Part shown: one piece after another, positions 53,718-62,424 of the stretch | How positions within the stretch are numbered: position 1 is the first letter of the stretch | Layout: each line of letters begins with the position of its first letter | Origin: Schlesneria paludicola DSM 18645 | GTDB taxonomy: Bacteria; Planctomycetota; Planctomycetia; Planctomycetales; Planctomycetaceae | Assembly (NCBI GenBank): GCA_945876035.1 | Contig: CAMCMU010000011.1 | Coordinates: forward strand, 1-64,000 | Direction: 5' to 3' | Length of the DNA stretch: 64,000 bases | The notes under the pieces: model-generated | What the model saw: the letters and a program-made list of their open reading frames with translations, nothing else | What the model was told of the DNA's origin: nothing | Database searches by the model: none | Program-made: the position numbers and the translations under genes

Positions 53718-54551
53718 TCACTCCCGGGTGGATCCCGATCCAAACTCGCGAACGCGGCGTGACACAATTTGTGGCGGCCACGGAAAGAAGGAACTGGTGC
53801 GTGTTTGATAGGCCGCATACTCAGGACGACGGTCGATAATCGTCTTCTCCAGCAGTGTCACTCCGGATACCTTGAGCAACAAAAACGACATCAGTAGCGG
53901 ACTGACGATTGTCCACGCCGCGCCACCGGCGAGGGCGATGATGTACAAGCCCCACCAGACGCAGAAGTCACCAAAGTAATTCGGATGTCGAGTCAGCCGC
54001 CAGAGGCCGCGGTCCAGGACTCGGCCAGCGTTTTGCGGATCCGCTTGAAATCGGGCCATCTGAAAATCGCCGACCGCTTCAAAGGTCAGCCCGATGCACC
54101 ATAAGACGATGCCGATCAGGTCGAACCAACCGCGAGGAATCGTTGATGCCGTGACCAACGCCGCTTGAATTGGCATCGAGACAATCCACAGGATGAGGCC
54201 CTGCAATAGAAAAACCGTCAACAAACTGATCCACCAAAAATGTGGGCCATGATTTTCTCGCATCGCGCGATAGCGGCGATCTTCAAGGTGGCCCCAATTG
54301 CGCCACAGCAGGTACAGCGACAGCCGCAAACCCCAGACTGTCGTCAACGTGACGAGCCACCACGATCGCTCGAACACTGGTGCCCGGGGAGTCGATGCCA
54401 GTGCAAACCACGTCACGAGGACGAAACCTGTTCCCCAAAACGGATCGACGACGCTGGCATCGCGACGTATGAGGCTCAGCAACCACAAACAGGTCATCGT
54501 GGCCATCACAAGCAGCAGCGAACTCAGCAGCAGCATCGTCAAGGGCATCAT
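53718..54551 (-). CDS. DUF1295 membrane protein (steroid 5-alpha-reductase-like fold)
   Basis: 277 residues with about seven hydrophobic segments. LIRRDASVVDPFWGTGFVLV, VWGLRLSLYLLWRNWG and, near the end, RGLWRLTRHPNYFGDFCVWWG match DUF1295/isoprenylcysteine-methyltransferase-like membrane enzymes. It is the last gene of the seven-gene operon and overlaps the preceding methyltransferase gene by 4 bases (ATGA). In related clusters it accompanies CFA-like enzymes; a membrane-lipid reductase or transferase role is inferred. Confidence 0.85.
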   Translation of the reverse strand: MMPLTMLLLSSLLLVMATMTCLWLLSLIRRDASVVDPFWGTGFVLVTWFALASTPRAPVFERSWWLVTLTTVWGLRLSLYLLWRNWGHLEDRRYRAMRENHGPHFWWISLLTVFLLQGLILWIVSMPIQAALVTASTIPRGWFDLIGIVLWCIGLTFEAVGDFQMARFQADPQNAGRVLDRGLWRLTRHPNYFGDFCVWWGLYIIALAGGAAWTIVSPLLMSFLLLKVSGVTLLEKTIIDRRPEYAAYQTRTSSFFPWPPQIVSRRVREFGSGSTRE

Positions 54552-55603
54552 GGTTTCTCACGGGTCTGCTGTAACAGAGAATGTGACACGAACCATTCAC
54601 TCCCGCCGGCGTAGCCGAAGAGTTCCGCCACCGCGAGAAAGAACAGACGCCAGCGGTAAAACCAACGTCGAGCTGAGTCGCGGCCGTAGGTCGCTTCCAG
54701 AATCGGCAAGACCTCTGTGCGGTGAGCATCCAGATTCGCGAGCCAGGCTTCGGAGGTCCGTTGATAATTGGTGCCGGACCAACGCCATTGCCGCACAACG
54801 GTCAGATGCCGATCGAACTGTCGCAACATGTTCTCGCTGGGCATCAAGCCGCCGGTAAAGAAATAACGGCCCATCCAGTTCGCGTCGCCCTCCGTTTCAA
54901 ACGGATACGCGAATTGCCGATGGCAAAAATGGTGTACGAACAGTTTTCCGTCTGGCTTCAGCCACGATGCAACCTGCTCCAGCAACTGCTCATAGTTCCG
55001 CATATGTTCGAACATCTCGACGGAGACGATCCGATCAAAGTGGCTCGGCTCAGCGACGAACTGATTCATATCGGCAGTGATGATCTGCAAATTCGTCAGT
55101 CGGCGTGAGGCCGCTTCTGTTTCGATGAATCGCCGTTGCGAAGCGGAGTTGGAGATCGCCACGATCCGACTGTTGCGAAACCGCTCGGCGATCCACAGCG
55201 ACAGCGAACCCCAGCCACAACCGAGCTCCAAAATCGTCTGACCATCGGCAAGATCAGCGCGTTCACAGGTGATCGCCAGTGATGCGGCTTCGGCCTCCGC
55301 CAACAAGATCTCCGCTGTCGGCCAAAAACAGGAGCTGTATTTGCGATGCGGCCCGAGAACTGCTGCGAAAAACTCTGGCGGCAATTCGTAATGCTGCTCG
55401 TTGGCTTTTTCAGGAACAGGTGCAATCGGCCCCGACCGCATCGACTCGACGAGTGCCGAAATCGTCCCTGAATTGGTGATTTTCTGGCCGCGATCGCAGC
55501 CGCGCAGACGTTGCGCGCACAACTGACGAATGGCCGCGCGCGTGATCGCATCCGGGACCCACCCGCGTTCTACGGCATCAAGGCTCAAGGACAGCAGACT
55601 CAT
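54548..55603 (-). CDS. CFA-family SAM-dependent methyltransferase, short form
   Basis: 351 residues. Motif I is ILELGCGWGSLSLWIAERF; the bicarbonate-site residues of CFA synthases are matched by SSCFW (Cys, shifted one place), VSVEMFEHMRNYEQ (Glu) and LFVHHFCH (His). It lacks the N-terminal domain of full CFA synthase. The ATG at 55603 overlaps the stop of the upstream gene in ATGA, and the stop overlaps the DUF1295 start the same way. A lipid methyltransferase acting with the neighbouring CFA-like enzyme is inferred. Confidence 0.88.
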   Translation of the reverse strand: MSLLSLSLDAVERGWVPDAITRAAIRQLCAQRLRGCDRGQKITNSGTISALVESMRSGPIAPVPEKANEQHYELPPEFFAAVLGPHRKYSSCFWPTAEILLAEAEAASLAITCERADLADGQTILELGCGWGSLSLWIAERFRNSRIVAISNSASQRRFIETEAASRRLTNLQIITADMNQFVAEPSHFDRIVSVEMFEHMRNYEQLLEQVASWLKPDGKLFVHHFCHRQFAYPFETEGDANWMGRYFFTGGLMPSENMLRQFDRHLTVVRQWRWSGTNYQRTSEAWLANLDAHRTEVLPILEATYGRDSARRWFYRWRLFFLAVAELFGYAGGSEWFVSHSLLQQTREKP

Positions 55604-56916
55604 AACGGACACCACTCCGCCGCACGGCGGCCAATGTGGATCGGATCGCGTTGGCAGAGAGGTTTGTCAAATTGAATTTGCACAACGCCGGTGTAACGTT
55701 CTTCGAATGCCGCCTCACAATAACTCAGGTAATAATCCCACATCCGAATGAACCTGTGGGGATAACCCAGAGCGAGCACATCCGTCACTCGTGCGTGAAA
55801 TCGTTGCCTCCATTCTCGCAGAGTCTGAGCGTAATGCATGCCGAAGTCCTCGGCATGAACAAACCGCAAATCGGTCGCACGGGCCGTTGATTCCAGTATC
55901 GAACTTATGGACGGCAGGCAACCGCCGGGAAAGACGTAGCGTTGAATGAAATCGACAGACCGCAAATACTGCGCGTATCGTCGATCGGGCATCACGATCC
56001 CTTGTAGTACGAATGTCCCACCCGGCTGAAGCAGTTCGCTGCACTTACCAAAGTAATTGTCGAAGTAGCGATGCCCGACCGCTTCGATCATCTCCACTGA
56101 GACGAGCTTGTCAAACTGACCGGTCAGGTCGCGATAGTCCTGCAGCAACAACGTCACACGATCCGATAACCCGGCGTCGACGATGCGTTGCTGAGCCACA
56201 TCAAACTGCTGCTGCGAGATCGTCGTCGTTGTGACTCGGGAGCCGTATTTGACGGCCGCATGAATCGCGAGACCGCCCCAGCCGGTGCCAATCTCCAGCA
56301 GATGATCGTTCGGCTGCAGATCAAGCTTGCGGCAGATACGGTCCATTTTTTCCAGCGATGCGTCGTGGAGAGTACTCGTCGGCGTCAGAAAAATGCCGCT
56401 TGAATACGACAGTGTTTCGTCGAGCATCAGCCGAAAGAATTCATTCCCTAAATCGTAATGCGCCCGAATGTTTCGCTGGCTCCCCGACCGACTATTCGCG
56501 TGCCAACTGTGGTACAGCCGATGGAACAGCTTGGTGATTCGCGACAGACCGCGTTCGAGTTGATCCGTTATCGGAAGGTTTCGCAAGAAAATCCGAAAGA
56601 ACGCCGTCAAGTCGTCACAGTCCCAGTCACCGCGGAGATACGACTCGGCGACGGACAAGCTTCCGCCGAGGACCGCGTGCCGGTAGAAGCTCGGATTGCG
56701 CACATCGAGACGTGCCTGCACATCGCCTCCCAGGCCAAGCGTGGTCGATCCCGACGAATCGGTTATCTGGATTGTTCCGCCACGCAGACACCCCAACTTC
56801 TGGACGAGCAATCGCCGCGCGAATCGATTCACATAACCCCGATTCGCCGACACGGGAGTGGAATCGTGATCGTCCGAGGGGACCTTTGAATGTTTGAAAG
56901 CGAACACAGTACTCAT
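55600..56916 (-). CDS. CFA-family fatty-acid methyltransferase, divergent active site
   Basis: 438 residues, with the full two-domain CFA layout: N-terminal lipid-binding domain ([20 protein letters not shown]) and SAM domain ([31 protein letters not shown]). Compared with E. coli CFA synthase, Cys139 aligns with Ser (LSYSSGIF) and His266 with Gln (FVLQGIVM), while Glu239 (SVEMIEAVG) and the later Tyr are kept. This suggests methyl transfer without normal cyclopropane formation, as for other fatty-acid methylases in light-induced clusters. It overlaps both neighbours by ATGA. Confidence 0.88.
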
Positions 56917-57764
56917 GGCGTCGAATTCTTCGAGGGTGAAAATTCAGGATTAGACACAGTCGCGATGGAGACGGTTTGTCCCGGATGCGGCACAACAGGG
57001 ACTTGCTTGATCCACAGCCGCAACGCTTGCCAATAAATGCCGACGAAGATCTGTATCGTGATCAGCGGGTATCGCAACAACATCCGCGTCAGCTGCCACT
57101 GCGTCATCGGCCGTTGTTGCAAAGCCAACGTCGCATCGAATTGCTTGCTGCGGTCCACGTAGTTTTCGATCGAGACCATCAGCCGTTTGCCTGGTTCAGT
57201 GACCCGCCAACGATACGTCATGTTCATCGGAAAAAATGGCGAAACGTGAAACTCCTTAGAGTGCTCAAATCGCCCGGTCCGCGGCCGCTCCGTTTTGCGC
57301 CCTTGTTTGTCATCGCTTTCGGCTGAGACACCGGCCCCACCGACAAAGTTTAGCACGTAGCTGTGCTTCTCGTTCCACGGCGTGTTGTTGACTTCCGCGA
57401 CAACGCATTCGACTCTCTCGCCAGACGCATCGAAGCAGAAATAGAAGCTGACCGGATTCATACCGAATCCGAAGTACCGAAAGTTGGTCAGCAATCCGAT
57501 CGGCCCGACAAGACACTGTCCCGTCCGTTGCTGCACCAACTCGCGGACGCAGTCGGCCAGTGGACGAACCGCATCGCCCATGTAGTCGGCGCGCCGAAAC
57601 CAAGCGATCGCCGGCCAGCGAGTTGACCAGCAGCCACGACGTCCGAACAACGAATCCAATTCGGAGAGATCCACGAAAGCCAGAAACAACCGGTATCGAA
57701 ACGAATGCTCGACCGGAGTAAGTCGCTGATGCCGCACCACGCCTTCATAAAGGCAACTTCTCAT
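56913..57764 (-). CDS. DUF1365 protein
   Basis: 283 residues. It starts [20 protein letters not shown] and continues [16 protein letters not shown]-like (observed [20 protein letters not shown]) and [19 protein letters not shown], then [29 protein letters not shown] and the closing hydrophobic [21 protein letters not shown]1365 genes nearly always neighbour CFA-like genes, and their function in fatty-acid modification is unproved. The ATG at 57764 overlaps the FAD-oxidoreductase stop (ATGA). Confidence 0.9.
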
Positions 57765-59038
57765 GTGCTCGCCTCCTGAGGCAGGAGCGCGTCGCAAACT
57801 CGCAGGGCACTGACCACGCCATCTTCGTGGAAGCCGTTGCCCCAATAGGCTCCACAGTATGAGGTCCGATTGACGTTAATCAGTTCGTGATGCCGAGCCT
57901 GCGCGGCGGCTCTGCGAACAGTGAAGATTGGATGGTGGTACTCGAATCGCCGCAGTACCTTCGCCGGGTCAATCTGCTTATCACTGTTGAGCGTCACGTT
58001 AAAAACGTGCTTTGATTGAAGATGCTGAAGCAGATTCATTTGATAAGTCACGGTGGCCGCCCCCAAGGCCTCCGTGTTGTTCCATCGCTGACCGGTGAGG
58101 CGATAATTCCAACTGGCCCAAGCATGTCGTCGCTTCGGCAACACCGACCTGTCGGTATGCAAGACCGCGATGTTGCGTTCATACGGAAACTCCGACAATA
58201 CCTCTCGCTCAACAGTCGTCGGATCGGAAAGCGACCGCAACGCTTGATCGCTATGACAGGCAAAAACAAGGTGATCGAAACATTCTGAGGGGCCTCCCTG
58301 TGGCTTAACGCAGATCATTTCCGGAGATCGAATCACCTGTTGAATTGGCGTCTTGAGGCGAACGCAATCGTGAAACCGTTTGGCCATTTTCACAACATAC
58401 GTCCGCGAACCACCGTCAATCACGCGCCACGTCGGTCGATGGCGAATGCTGAGCAAGCCGTGATTACGATAGAACTCAACAATAAATCGGATCGGAAAGT
58501 TTTCAAACGTCCCGACCGGGCATGACCAAATCGCAGCACCCATCGGCAGCAAATAATATTCGGCAAACTCACGCGAATAGTGCTGCTTTGCGAGAAACTC
58601 GCCGACCGTTGTCTCGTGCGTCGCAGGCCGACTCAGAATCAACTCTGGCGTTTCACGATTGAAACGCAGGATGTCTCGCAACATCCGATAAAAGCGGGGA
58701 CGCAGCAAGTTGCGCCGTTGAGCAAAAAGTCCATTCAAAGACGAGCCGTTGTACTCCAAATTCGCCGTATCGCATCGCACGCTGAAACTCATCGATGTCG
58801 GACGCGACGGGACACCGAGTTCGTTCAATAATTGTACAAAATTTGGGTACGTCCGATCGTTGAAGACAATGAACCCGGTGTCGATCACCTGCCGCTCCCC
58901 TTGAACTTCGACATCGACCGTCTGCGTGTGTCCACCCAAATAATCATTGGCCTCAAACACCGTGATGTCATGCCATGGGCTCAGCCGATACGCCGCCGTC
59001 AGACCGGAAATTCCAGCTCCAATAATCGCGATCTTCAT
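57761..59038 (-). CDS. FAD-dependent amine-oxidase/desaturase-like oxidoreductase
   Basis: 425 residues. It begins with the dinucleotide-binding [20 protein letters not shown] and [17 protein letters not shown], then [19 protein letters not shown], and ends with the FAD-contacting [18 protein letters not shown]. This is the family in LitR- or sigmaE-controlled clusters, where it is thought to oxidise fatty acyl chains. The start has AGAGGA about 10 bases upstream, overlapping the stop of the beta-propeller gene (14-base gap). Confidence 0.9.
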
Positions 59039-59052
59039 GACAGCTGCGTCCT

Positions 59053-60336
59053 CTACTCAGGCGGGGCGGACCAACGAAAGACCGCCACACCATTCAGGTC
59101 ACGCACAAAAACCTCGTCCCCGCAAACGGCCAAGTGGGCCCAGGTCGGTGAATCGCTGATGTGCCGCTGACCAAGCAGCTCAAACTTTTCCGGATTCGCC
59201 CGGATGAGCAACAGATCACCGCGTTCATCGAGCGCCAATATTTTTGGGCCTTGGGCGACCAAGCTCCAGTACTTGCCGAACGGCTGAGTGATCCAACGCT
59301 CTTTGCCGGTCGCGAGTTCAATGCAAGCGAAACGCCCGTTTTTCAGATGCGTATAAATGTGGCGGTCGATAACGACCGGTGTGGACATGTACCCCTGCAC
59401 TTTGTTAGTCCAGCGTTCGGTCACCGAGATTGTCTTGCCGGCGGTGGATGCCGCGTCGCTCTGGGTCAGATCGAACAACCAAGATTTTCCGCCATAGCTG
59501 CTGGTGAAGACCGCATCGCCGACCACCAGCGGCGTGAGGATATTCATGCCGCGAAAGGCTTCGATTTTTTGCGACCAAAGTTCCATGCCGGTGGCCTCCT
59601 CAACGCCTACGAGTTTGTCGCGTGTCTGCACGAGGAACTGCGACTGTCCCACGATTGTCGCTTTCAGGGGAGAAGAGAACGCGCTGCCATGCATGCCGCC
59701 ACTGTCTTGCAGCGATCGCCACACCGTCGCGCCGTTGCGTTTGTTGAGTTTTACGAACGAGGCGCCAGCTTGAACGTAAACGTTCTCGCCATCGACCAGC
59801 GGAGAGGACACGAATCCAAACGTCGGCAACGGCGACTTGAAACGCTCAACAAAATCGACGCGCCAACGCTCCGTGCCAGTGGTGGTATCGAGGCAGACCA
59901 GCACCTCACGGATCCCAGCGACAAACAGCGATTCGCCATCGCAGGCTGGCGTCGCTCGAATCCACTCGCCATTCTCTCGGGCAAAGAACGGAACGGATGT
60001 CGCTCCGGGCCACGCGGCCGACCACAAAACCGCTCCACCGATTCGAGACAACGCCTGCACGACCTCCGTTGTTTTGTCGCGAGTCTCCGTCACGAAGATG
60101 CGATCCTCTCCGACAATCGGCCCGGAATAGCTCGGCATCAACTCAACGCGCCATTGTTCAACGAGCGTGACCGAGTCGATGCGATCTGGCCAAAGGGGGA
60201 GTACCGCCGCTTGCCCATCGCGAGACGGACCGCGCCACTGTGACCACGTGGCGTCGAGGTCTGATCCACACAAAGTCGGAGGCATTCCAAAGAGACCCGC
60301 GACAAACATCGCAAAACCGATTGGGAGTAATCGCAT
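59053..60336 (-). CDS. Exported PQQ-type beta-propeller repeat protein
   Basis: 427 residues. Signal peptide (about 1-24). WSQWRGPSRDGQ is a hallmark of planctomycete BamB-like propellers, followed by blades such as VCLDTTTGTERWRVDF, VKLNKRNGATVWRS, VGVEEATGMELWSQ and IELATGKERWITQ. The binding partner is unknown. The start at 60336 has TTGAGGC 6 bases upstream, and its gene follows the regulator gene by 7 bases, so it is embedded in the operon. It is not part of this cluster in the bacteria where I know the cluster. Confidence 0.85.
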   Translation of the reverse strand: MRLLPIGFAMFVAGLFGMPPTLCGSDLDATWSQWRGPSRDGQAAVLPLWPDRIDSVTLVEQWRVELMPSYSGPIVGEDRIFVTETRDKTTEVVQALSRIGGAVLWSAAWPGATSVPFFARENGEWIRATPACDGESLFVAGIREVLVCLDTTTGTERWRVDFVERFKSPLPTFGFVSSPLVDGENVYVQAGASFVKLNKRNGATVWRSLQDSGGMHGSAFSSPLKATIVGQSQFLVQTRDKLVGVEEATGMELWSQKIEAFRGMNILTPLVVGDAVFTSSYGGKSWLFDLTQSDAASTAGKTISVTERWTNKVQGYMSTPVVIDRHIYTHLKNGRFACIELATGKERWITQPFGKYWSLVAQGPKILALDERGDLLLIRANPEKFELLGQRHISDSPTWAHLAVCGDEVFVRDLNGVAVFRWSAPPE

Positions 60337-60343
60337 AAACGCC

Positions 60344-61228
60344 TCAAGCCTTGTTGCGTGTCGATTCCGGTTGTCTTCGCCAGGTATGGGCAAAGTCTTC
60401 TAGATGCCGCATCGTGTCGCAAAATGCCGAGTAGCGAAGCCGTGTCCGGATCTCGGGTGTGAGAACCCGGCCACCGACAACAATCGCTGTCTTGGTTTTC
60501 ATGCCAGTCGTAAACAGTCGATGAAACCCGTCCACGAATGCCGCTTCGTCGGCGATGAATGAAACGCTTAACCAGAAGAGATCTGGTGAGTGCTTCTCAA
60601 TCGCCTTCACGATCGAATCGAAAGGGATAGACGTCCCGAGCAACCGCGCATCCCAAGCAGCCGAGCGCAGCACAATCTCGGCCATCGTGACCGGCAGAAT
60701 ATATTGATCCCCTTCGATCGTCGCTCCCAACGCAACGAAGTTCCGATCGGGGGCGACTTGTTTGGATCGAAGTTCATGAAGCAGGCGGAGCATCGCCTGA
60801 CAAGCCGCTCGCTCTTGATAAACCTCCGCTTGGTGACACTCCCACTTTTGGCCGATTTTTCGAAAGGCGGCAGAAATCACCTCGTCAAAAATCCCGCTCA
60901 CCGACTCACCCTTCAGAAACAAATCAAAAAAAATCGCGTGACAGGCGAGATCGTTCCCTGCCAAAAGCGCCTCCGTCAATCGCTCGACGCTTTCTTCGAT
61001 CCGACCCGCCTTTCGATCCATCGTCGCCGGCATCGATAGGATCCGAGGCTCAACCACGGCGTGATTCTGTTCGCGAACGAAACGCAATGCCTCCTGAATC
61101 GGAATCCGTCGATGGCCGCCTCCGGTCTTGACCGTCTGGAGCATCCCCTGATCGCACCAACGCTTGAGCGAAGATTCGCTGACACCAATCGCCACAGCCA
61201 CTTGCTTCGGAGACAGAAGTCGTTCCAT
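60344..61228 (-). CDS. MerR-type regulator with degenerate B12-binding domain (LitR/CarH-like)
   Basis: 294 residues. The N-terminal HTH reads MERLLSPKQVAVAIGVSESS and RWCDQGMLQTVKTGGGHRRI, as in CarH/LitR. The helical B12-sensing motif W-x9-EH is W-x9-ER here (KWECHQAEVYQER), and the cobalamin-ligating E-x-H-x-x-G is GDQYILP (His to Tyr, Gly to Pro). Domain order and spacing are otherwise normal. Loss of both suggests it does not bind B12 in the usual way. It is the first gene of the seven-gene operon and presumably controls it and the divergent SRPBCC/photolyase genes. The ATG at 61228 is preferred; no strong SD. Confidence 0.88.
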   Translation of the reverse strand: MERLLSPKQVAVAIGVSESSLKRWCDQGMLQTVKTGGGHRRIPIQEALRFVREQNHAVVEPRILSMPATMDRKAGRIEESVERLTEALLAGNDLACHAIFFDLFLKGESVSGIFDEVISAAFRKIGQKWECHQAEVYQERAACQAMLRLLHELRSKQVAPDRNFVALGATIEGDQYILPVTMAEIVLRSAAWDARLLGTSIPFDSIVKAIEKHSPDLFWLSVSFIADEAAFVDGFHRLFTTGMKTKTAIVVGGRVLTPEIRTRLRYSAFCDTMRHLEDFAHTWRRQPESTRNKA

Positions 61229-61400
61229 GAGTTCACACGAAAATAAACGAGCGTAAGAAGTAGTGATCAGCACCAGACTGGCAGCAACCTAACACAACAA
61301 ACAGGTGAGAGCAACTTTACAATAACGTCCAATACGTCCTCACGGAATGCGGACGAAGCAATTCATAGACATGAGGCCTGCCCCTCCGTAAATCATAGCC

Positions 61401-61679
61401 TCATACAACGCAGCAAGAGAGGCGAAGAATTCCAGAAATCGCCATGATTTCGGCTTTCTGTAGTTCTTCGAGGCCCTGTTTGTTCCCTGCAGAGGAGATT
61501 CCCGACTTGACCTTCAGGGCATTCGATTTGATGGTCAACTTTTCCGCCAAGCGACCGATTCCGGTTGCATCCTCACGATAAAAACATTCAAATCGTTCAT
61601 CGATACCCTGCGTTTGACATGACTCATAATCGCATTCAGGTCGTGACCTTAGGCCACAACCTCCGGCAAGCCGTCCGCT
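61401..61679 (-). pseudogene. Start-less reading frame, possible gene remnant
   Basis: 92 codons are open between stops, with no ATG or GTG near the front. The product is protein-like in the middle: CQTQGIDERFECFYREDATG, then IGRLAEKLTIKSNALKVKSG and AGNKQGLEELQKAEIMAIS. No family is recognised. The charge pattern is more regular than expected by chance, so it may be the decayed end of a gene, bordered at its 5' side by the inverted repeat. Confidence 0.25.
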
Positions 61680-61695
61680 TTACCCAAATGAGACT

Positions 61696-61741
61696 TTACC
61701 ATCAATTCACGGCCCTTCTTGGGGCTCGGAATTGATGGTAA
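61696..61741. repeat. Large inverted repeat between the regulator and the SRPBCC gene
   Basis: Arms TTACCATCAATTC (61696-61708) and GAATTGATGGTAA (61729-61741) match perfectly over 13 bp. An inner GCCC/GGGC pair closes the loop. It is close to the SRPBCC upstream region and could be an operator, a terminator, or the end of a small mobile element. Confidence 0.6.
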
Positions 61742-61938
61742 GGGACTTCTTAAACAGGAACCGGACTAATGATCGCAAATCTTCCATAAACCATGTTCTA
61801 GCCGGTTCTCTCTCAGCAACCGCAGTCCAAGATCGTTGGCGTCCGTGGTTGCTCTGGGCGAATCGGCTCATCGCTTTCGGGCGTCATCGTCCATACCGTA
61901 TTCACGCGTTCACTTCCCGGCAAATGATGGGTAACGCC

Positions 61939-62424
61939 ATGTCGATGTATCGACTGATTCGAGAACAAATCATTGCACGCCCAGTGGAAGAAGTATTTCG
62001 TTTTTTTGCGGACGCGAGCAATCTGAAAATGCTGATCCCTCCGAGACTGCGGTTTCAGATTCTGACGCCTGGCGACATCGAGATGCGGGGCGGAACAATT
62101 ATTCAATATGCTCTACGAATTCATGGTGTTCCCATTCGTTGGATGGCCACGATCACCGAATGGAACCCACCGTTTGAATTTGTGGATACCCAACTGCAAG
62201 GACCGTATCTCTTCTGGCAACACCGACACACGTTTGAGCCTCTCGACAAGGCAACTCGAATGATCGACGAAGTGAATTATCGTCTTCCGCTGGGTTGGAT
62301 CGGCCAAGCCATGCACTCATTGCTGATTCGAGACGATTTGGAAACCATCTTTAACTATCGCAAGCGGGCGGTCATTCGCCAGTTTGAAACCCGCCCCCCA
62401 AACGCACCCGTGGGCTTGGACTAG
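61939..62424 (+). CDS. SRPBCC-family (START-like) protein
   Basis: 161 residues: MSMYRLIREQIIARPVEEVF, then FADASNLKMLIPPRLRFQIL, TEWNPPFEFVDTQLQGPYLF and a conserved YRLPLGWIGQAMHSLLIRDD. This is the helix-grip fold of the cyclase/dehydrase group that neighbours photolyase and LitR genes in many bacteria; it binds hydrophobic ligands. A longer in-frame start at 61732 exists, but the extension is Arg-rich and non-homologous. A photolyase gene lies about 1.1 kb downstream on the same strand. Confidence 0.8.
   Translation: MSMYRLIREQIIARPVEEVFRFFADASNLKMLIPPRLRFQILTPGDIEMRGGTIIQYALRIHGVPIRWMATITEWNPPFEFVDTQLQGPYLFWQHRHTFEPLDKATRMIDEVNYRLPLGWIGQAMHSLLIRDDLETIFNYRKRAVIRQFETRPPNAPVGLD

Follow-up and report, generated by a model that had tools for sequence, protein, structure and literature searches.

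One gene in the window (the whole stretch of 64,000 nucleotides that was analysed) probably encodes, in our moderately confident judgement, an auto-regulated photo-oxidative (singlet-oxygen-type) regulator. It would be a planctomycete member of the LitR/CarH group, derived from a CtMerR-type adenosylcobalamin (AdoCbl) photoreceptor whose lower side has been rebuilt. The first-pass annotation had described a LitR/CarH-like regulator that lacks the His which ligates cobalt, and both the motifs and the domains agree with this. If the present reading is right, it supplies a candidate planctomycete light regulator, a defined repeat to go with it and a set of candidate targets. It would also mean that evolution has remodelled a B12 photosensor in its lower half and held its upper half, a natural experiment on the sensing parts of CarH. 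A literature search joining planctomycetes with CarH or LitR returned, among the matches listed, no light regulation by such a protein in Planctomycetota.

The HTH and the domain order had been called intact, and they are. HTH_17, B12-binding_2 and B12-binding all score above their gathering thresholds (34.1 bits against a cut-off of 32.1 for B12-binding, PF02310) and follow each other as in CarH and class I LitR. MerR and MerR_1 score below their own gathering cut-offs, and the NCBIfam CarH equivalog model gives 46.3 bits against a cut-off of 400. Pfam finds no photocobilin-type biliverdin-binding (globin-like) domain, and the protein stops at residue 294, soon after the Rossmann domain. It is the sole match in its own genome (4.7 Mb, 96.85% complete). 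The predicted model (pLDDT 95.2) is closest to CtMerR (8jbs; Z 26.6, rmsd 2.0, 217 residues aligned), followed by photocobilins (Z 23.4-23.8), CarH (Z 20.5 and below) and the heme-binding SCHIC domain of AppA (4heh; Z 19.8). A predicted fold such as this does not by itself identify the ligand.

Table 1. Features of the regulator locus, in window coordinates.
Feature	Position	Strand	Remarks
Regulator gene, 294 aa	60344..61228	-	ORF, ATG start
HTH_17	61070-61219	-	residues 4-53; Pfam, above gathering score
B12-binding_2 (four-helix)	60773-60985	-	residues 82-152; Pfam, above gathering score
B12-binding (Rossmann)	60434-60733	-	residues 166-265; Pfam, above gathering score
Trp129 codon	60842..60844	-	equivalent of CarH Trp131 (adenosyl cap); conserved
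Glu139-Arg140 codons	60809..60814	-	CarH Glu141-His142; Glu retained, Arg for His in one large subgroup
Gly168 codon	60725..60727	-	clade-specific; first Rossmann strand (161-171 in model)
Tyr176 codon	60701..60703	-	at place of cobalt-ligating His177
Trp219 codon	60572..60574	-	clade-specific; strand 217-221 in model, two before Ser221 (S-x-T/V motif)
Putative promoter TTGCTC-N17-TAGGTT	61286..61314	-	adjoins operator
Putative operator AACGTCCAATACGTCC	61324..61339	+	direct repeat, 9-bp period
Second operator-like site	61583..61598	+	1 mismatch; upstream of divergent SRPBCC gene
SRPBCC (polyketide cyclase-like) gene	61732..62424	+	divergent; recurrent neighbour
PQQ/BamB-type beta-propeller gene	59053..60393	-	next downstream; listed TTG start overlaps regulator end
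Flavin amine-oxidoreductase gene	57761..59038	-	putatively UfaD-like, only by order next to DUF1365
DUF1365 gene	56913..57845	-	domain of UfaO
Cyclopropane fatty acid synthase-type methyltransferase gene	55600..56916	-	
Second CMAS-type methyltransferase gene	54548..55615	-	
DUF1295/steroid-reductase-like gene	53718..54551	-	

How much of the cobalamin pocket is left? In CarH, Trp131 stacks on the adenosyl group and Glu141 hydrogen-bonds it, while cobalt has His177 as its lower ligand (PMC10442372). The motif spellings given earlier are confirmed as W129-x9-E139-R140 and G173-D174-Q175-Y176-I-L-P179. The CarH motif Wx9EH is therefore found here as Wx9ER, with W and E conserved and Arg throughout a group of 102 rows (the ER group, below), and the motif D/ExHx2G/P, whose His ligates cobalt, as GDQYILP with Tyr in its place. 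In the rest of the signature (x41 SxT/V x22-27 GG) the 41-residue spacing from Pro179 to S221 is exact, then comes S-V-S on a strand that carries the clade-specific Trp219, and 28 residues lead to GG. The real changes with respect to CarH are two, namely His177 to Tyr176 (the dark-state cobalt ligand) and His142 to Arg140 (on the adenosyl side). The change from Gly to Pro had also been counted as a departure. However, the published motif permits Pro (PMC9304148), and the photocobilin SasPcob (8j2x) reads EWHALP; Gly to Pro is thus no loss. Judged from the alignment, the statement that the protein "has lost its cobalamin ligands" is an overstatement. It holds for the dark-state cobalt His, the only one of CarH's ligands that is replaced, but W129 and E139, the equivalents of adenosyl-contact residues in CarH, are near-invariant. 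The B12-independent CarA shows the reverse pattern, having kept the His motif and lost the adenosyl-cap Trp (PMC9304148), whereas the regulator kept the Trp and lost the His.

Relatives are widespread in the order. A match at E <= 0.001, in a few cases short or weak, occurs in 115 of 150 genomes, and one at E <= 1e-15 in 104 of 343 genomes of the phylum, more distant B12-domain proteins included. Among the best 80 of 429 loci in named genomes there are 79 planctomycete records and one named only 'bacterium', the nearest being from Planctomycetaceae and Schlesneria MAGs. Searches of plasmids and phages gave distant relatives only, all below 60% identity (21 records and 1, respectively). An alignment of 80 rows (P0001 plus 79 of the 96 other listed references) shows no variation at W129 and E139, and conservation of 90% or more at R140, D174 and Y176.

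An effector-domain tree of 173 sequences was built in one FastTree run and rooted on L311; its input was the matches from the order above 140 bits, leaving out L107|9802, L121-L124 and the L127 fragment. The planctomycete sequences form one clade of 148 tips (support 0.84), or of 147 with support 0.996 when L118 is set aside. This clade adjoins the AdoCbl photoreceptor CtMerR (support 0.994 for the two together), and CtMerR is the nearest relative under the root chosen, on which that placement depends. Residue 176 is Tyr in 135 of the 148 members, the other 13 having His (3), Cys (3), Asn (2), Ser (2), or Phe, Thr or Gly (1 each). Because the changes are common to so large a clade, the idea that the regulator is a single decayed copy was ruled out.

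Residue 140 divides the clade into an ER group (102 rows), an EH group with His140 (45 rows) and a single EA row. The adenosyl side is kept in both groups: W129 is present in 101/102 ER and 42/45 EH rows, E139 in 102/102 and 43/45, and they rank 11th and 5th by conservation among the 195 effector columns. The lower side looks different. Four of those columns are clade-specific, defined as reaching 80% or more within the clade but no more than 20% among 25 H-type relatives: G168, Y176, W219 and, the weakest, L105. G168 occurs in 101/102 ER, 45/45 EH and 0/25 H-type rows; W219 in 100/102, 44/45 and 0/25, its place being taken by Ala, Gly or Cys in 19 of the 25 H-type relatives. By strand alternation in the model, the side chain of Trp219 would point toward the nucleotide-tail cleft. 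AerR has Thr189 where its third strand ends, and this residue forms a hydrogen bond with the benzimidazole tail (PMC9144470). Given the loss of the His together with the clade-specific G168 and W219, the regulator probably no longer binds cobalamin in the canonical base-off/His-on mode. Nevertheless, with Trp and Glu near-invariant, a ligand may well still occupy the adenosyl side.

The DNA side of the system can also be approached from sequence. Upstream regions share a direct repeat of 9-bp period, CGTYCA-WWW-CGTYCA. A hand-made operator pattern, found only 6 times in 169 upstream regions (0.25 in shuffles), was replaced by a motif learned by EM, AAAaaCGTtCAAAtCGTTCAtt, which is present in 10/10 loci of one genus and in an estimated 54% of 71 others; its log-likelihood is 422.7, whereas three shuffled sets give 82.5-85.8 (motif width 22, 71 upstream regions). 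The window's close group carries the repeat in the other orientation, GGACGTATTGGACGTTATTG. The putative operator at 61324-61339 is the only exact AWCGTYCAWWWCGTYC match in its own genome, where one mismatch or fewer gives 11 matches against 2 in the reversed control; two mismatches within the window give chance numbers (14 against 14.2). Nine own-genome matches lie outside contig C11, most of them inside ORFs, and four proteins at three such sites (L337, L339, L340) yielded one Pfam match, an NADH:quinone/Mrp antiporter domain. For these reasons no further own-genome targets are named. A TTG-N17/18-TA promoter directly follows the repeat in 8 of 9 close loci (0.7 expected), the nine having been hand-picked from 16 in the close group. 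In CarH systems the operators consist of tandem 11-bp repeats, and in T. thermophilus one of the repeats takes in the -35 element (PMC9304148). The architecture here is similar, since both are tandem direct repeats near a promoter. However, the repeat itself differs, having a 9-bp period and CGTYCA rather than the CarH-type nnnnTnnACAn.

Because the motif was learned from upstream regions of this gene, its presence there is partly by construction; its presence elsewhere is not. In 12 chosen genomes AWWCGTYCAWWWCGTYCA occurs at 12 sites in 9 genomes (1 control site), upstream of the regulator (8), photolyase (2) and fasciclin (2). One exact form has 100 sites in 150 genomes against 3 in the reversed control. 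Neighbours were counted for 79 of the 100. A gene on either strand counted as a neighbour if it started no more than about 320 bp away, and one site can serve two genes. The regulator (21) or a labelled recurrent neighbour (48) adjoins 69 of the 79, and neither adjoins the other 10. ECF sigma factor genes are found beside 32 sites, fasciclin beside 28, FolE beside 4, oxidoreductase, photolyase, NmrA/TspO and PQQ beside 2 each and UvdE beside 1. These labels come from BLAST to neighbour clusters, the photolyase, ECF and one fasciclin label sequence being drawn from the repeat loci themselves; Pfam was applied to three labelled ECF genes. The regulator and the exact site tend to occur together (66/115 genomes with a regulator match, 3/35 without; Fisher p 1.5e-7 in a test that ignores shared ancestry), and with six short or weak matches removed the figures are 65/109 and 4/41. 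The remaining 49 of the 115 genomes have no exact site, and for the longer pattern these include the window's own genome. Pfam was run on four proteins from three unlabelled sites (L392, L401, L380) and on the gene at L415. Two of these gave no match; the others were an FAD/halogenase-like protein, an FG-GAP protein and one with a weak winged-helix match. An exact repeat site lies 9 bp before the start of the FAD/tryptophan-halogenase-like frame (L392:1507-3000), a possible further target.

Some divergent homologues (L121:9035-10030, L122:8931-9965 and L123:6903-8003, in genomes G036, G023 and G028) are without Trp129 and the GDxY motif, and their genomes have exact repeat sites. They may represent a second step away from ligand sensing. 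With the pocket lost and repeat sites present, the function on DNA may persist without the pocket, which may speak against the ligand being needed.

In the window the regulator gene is the first in a series of genes on one strand (beta-propeller, flavin oxidoreductase, DUF1365, two CFA-type methyltransferases, DUF1295) whose families recur in 30-44 loci each, in a survey of the window and 100 loci of the order, up to 20 kb each, with every cluster named from one representative. In furan fatty acid synthesis the DUF1365 domain is that of UfaO (PMC7380195). An ECF sigma cluster recurs in 38 loci, and its ORFs can overlap the regulator on the opposite strand. Other recurrent neighbours are SRPBCC (22 loci), fasciclin, FolE, FMN-binding and DCC1 (10 each), ferrochelatase (9), photolyase, PTPS and NmrA/TspO (8 each) and UvdE (7). 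These kinds of genes resemble the singlet-oxygen regulon of R. sphaeroides RpoE, which includes rpoE, chrR, cfaS, phrA, RSP_1091/1090, a fasciclin and folE2 (PMC7074977). Photolyase PF03441 is matched in 84/150 genomes of the order (68 over the cut-off) and is not matched in the window's own genome, so a photolyase of this family is not an obligatory target. One group of homologues has a photolyase gene next downstream (L071, L101, L102, L106, L109), with Tyr at residue 176, or Cys (L109) or Asn (L106). In several close relatives (L033 and L035-L039) the stretch upstream of the regulator resembles, by eye, a CsrA-type coding region (VLEVRGNQVRLGIVAPKE). Outside the planctomycetes, the Rhizobium sp. 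TH2 plasmid pTH2c encodes a His-type HTH-B12 protein (L327:2926-3765), missing from the record's gene table, beside a fasciclin gene, a pair that echoes the planctomycete linkage.

What might release such a repressor? The first-pass annotation had suggested a B12-independent version, perhaps working with another photoreceptor, and had pointed to class-II-like LitR proteins of Pseudomonas that work with a LOV protein. The class II comparison fails, as class II LitRs are described as retaining only the 4-helix domain (PMC9758184) and both B12 halves score above gathering here. As to a partner, the own genome has no match coding for GxxNCRFLQ (nucleotide level, no mismatch, one motif spelling, so that LOV-like PAS domains could be missed) and no BLUF match by domain model; across the order the LOV motif occurs in 18 and BLUF in 17 of 150 genomes, against 115 for the regulator. 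A LOV or BLUF partner is therefore unsupported as a general mechanism. That the regulator is a B12-independent, ligand-free repressor released by some other protein, either a LOV/BLUF receptor or a CarS-like antirepressor, is rather unlikely. There are precedents in the class II LitR PmlR2, which works with a short LOV protein (PMC9758184), and in the B12-independent CarA, which is released by CarS (PMC9304148), and the pocket-less homologues in genomes keeping repeat sites would fit, as would those genomes that do have LOV or BLUF matches. However, such matches are far rarer than the regulator, and a ligand-free domain should drift at Trp129 and Glu139, as CarA has at its Trp, whereas here both rank among the most conserved positions.

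Perhaps the protein is instead an AdoCbl photoreceptor of the ordinary kind, with the tail still inserted and with Tyr, or nothing at all, as the lower ligand where His used to be. A loss of AdoCbl supply was considered and rejected, the AdoCbl-forming family PduO (PF01923) being found in 142/150 genomes, the window's own included. CobA (PF02572) is found in 7/150, the own genome not among them, and six genomes have a regulator match and no PduO match (G075, G077, G106, G131, G136, G148; none among the seven with CobA), from which nothing is inferred as these assemblies are 88-97% complete. The adenosyl-cap residues and GG are kept. Loss of the His need not end cobalamin binding, since Mmp10 binds cobalamin without the canonical motifs and with Leu below the cobalt (PMC8828468). 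CtMerR and photocobilins are described as lacking the other light-state His of CarH, H132 (PMC11796333). This reading is unlikely nonetheless, because W219 and G168 go with the loss of the His, near the tail motif, and because HaAI-2E, with Arg at the His place, served as a negative control (PMC11796333). It is also improbable that the ligand is heme or another tail-less tetrapyrrole, bound in the manner of SCHIC with Tyr as the metal ligand, and that the domain senses heme, porphyrin or singlet oxygen. The match of the heme-binding, B12-type SCHIC fold to the model, the ferrochelatase cluster in nine surveyed loci and the role of protoporphyrin IX as blue-light sensitiser in M. xanthus (PMC9304148) would suit it. 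But a shared fold shows no ligand, and SCHIC has Leu for the cap Trp and a longer b3-a3 loop (PMC9144470), whereas the Trp is kept here. Finally, the 9-bp repeats could be bound by another factor, or be part of ECF sigma promoters, their proximity to the regulator gene being incidental. ECF sigma is indeed the commonest labelled site neighbour (32/79), and sites occur in 3 of the 35 genomes without a regulator match. This is very unlikely, however: a -35/-10 pair does not take the form of tandem repeats with a 9-bp period, a separate promoter adjoins them in most of the hand-picked loci, and the sites co-occur with the regulator.

The reading of an auto-regulated photo-oxidative regulator with a rebuilt sensor would work as follows. 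The regulator would bind the CGTYCA-WWW-CGTYCA repeats that adjoin its own operon's promoter and, in relatives, those upstream of ECF sigma, lipid, photolyase, fasciclin and folE genes. In the dark it would presumably repress, rather than activate, its own operon and, in relatives, the ECF sigma gene. Its sensor domain would descend from a CtMerR-type AdoCbl photoreceptor with the lower side rebuilt, the cobalt His having become Tyr and Gly168 and Trp219 having appeared near the nucleotide-tail motif. The ligand would be held by the Trp/Glu cap and not by a cobalt His; a corrinoid bound in a different mode is the likeliest candidate, another tetrapyrrole a less likely one. This ligand, or its reaction with light (the presumed signal) or singlet oxygen, would release the repressor. 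A broader version can be entertained only tentatively, and we consider it doubtful as a whole: a phylum-wide family of photoreceptors or singlet-oxygen sensors that hold a cofactor without a cobalt His, with Trp219 filling the nucleotide-tail cleft, and that control a planctomycete counterpart of the RpoE/ChrR regulon. The cofactor in it, as part of the same joint judgement, would be Tyr-facing or base-on AdoCbl, or a different tetrapyrrole.

Several known systems share parts of this picture. The Pseudomonas class II LitRs PplR and PmlR2 are LitR-type proteins without canonical B12 binding, and their light-induced genes include PhrB, UfaM and FolE (PMC9758184); they differ in domain content and, for PmlR2, in the LOV partner. 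The photocobilins SasPcob and AbDPcob share the B12 domain and, in SasPcob, the Pro at the Gly place, but they have retained the His and possess a biliverdin-binding domain, and the regulator has neither. AppA SCHIC and AerR place a B12-domain fold in light/redox control. Unlike the regulator they are not fused to its HTH, and SCHIC lost the Trp cap while AerR keeps the His (PMC9144470). CarH and class I LitR of T. thermophilus, M. xanthus and B. megaterium have the HTH, four-helix and Rossmann arrangement, the adenosyl-cap Trp/Glu and a tandem direct-repeat operator near a -35 element, to which the regulator's putative operator is alike; the regulator differs in having no cobalt His, an HTH_17-type HTH and a linkage to lipid, photolyase and ECF sigma genes. 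The closest system is CtMerR of Chloracidobacterium thermophilum (8JBS/8JBT), which resembles the regulator in domain order, HTH spelling (SESSVKRW), fold and position in the rooted tree. CtMerR keeps EH and GDLH and binds AdoCbl (PMC11796333), whereas the regulator has ER and GDQY together with W219 and G168.
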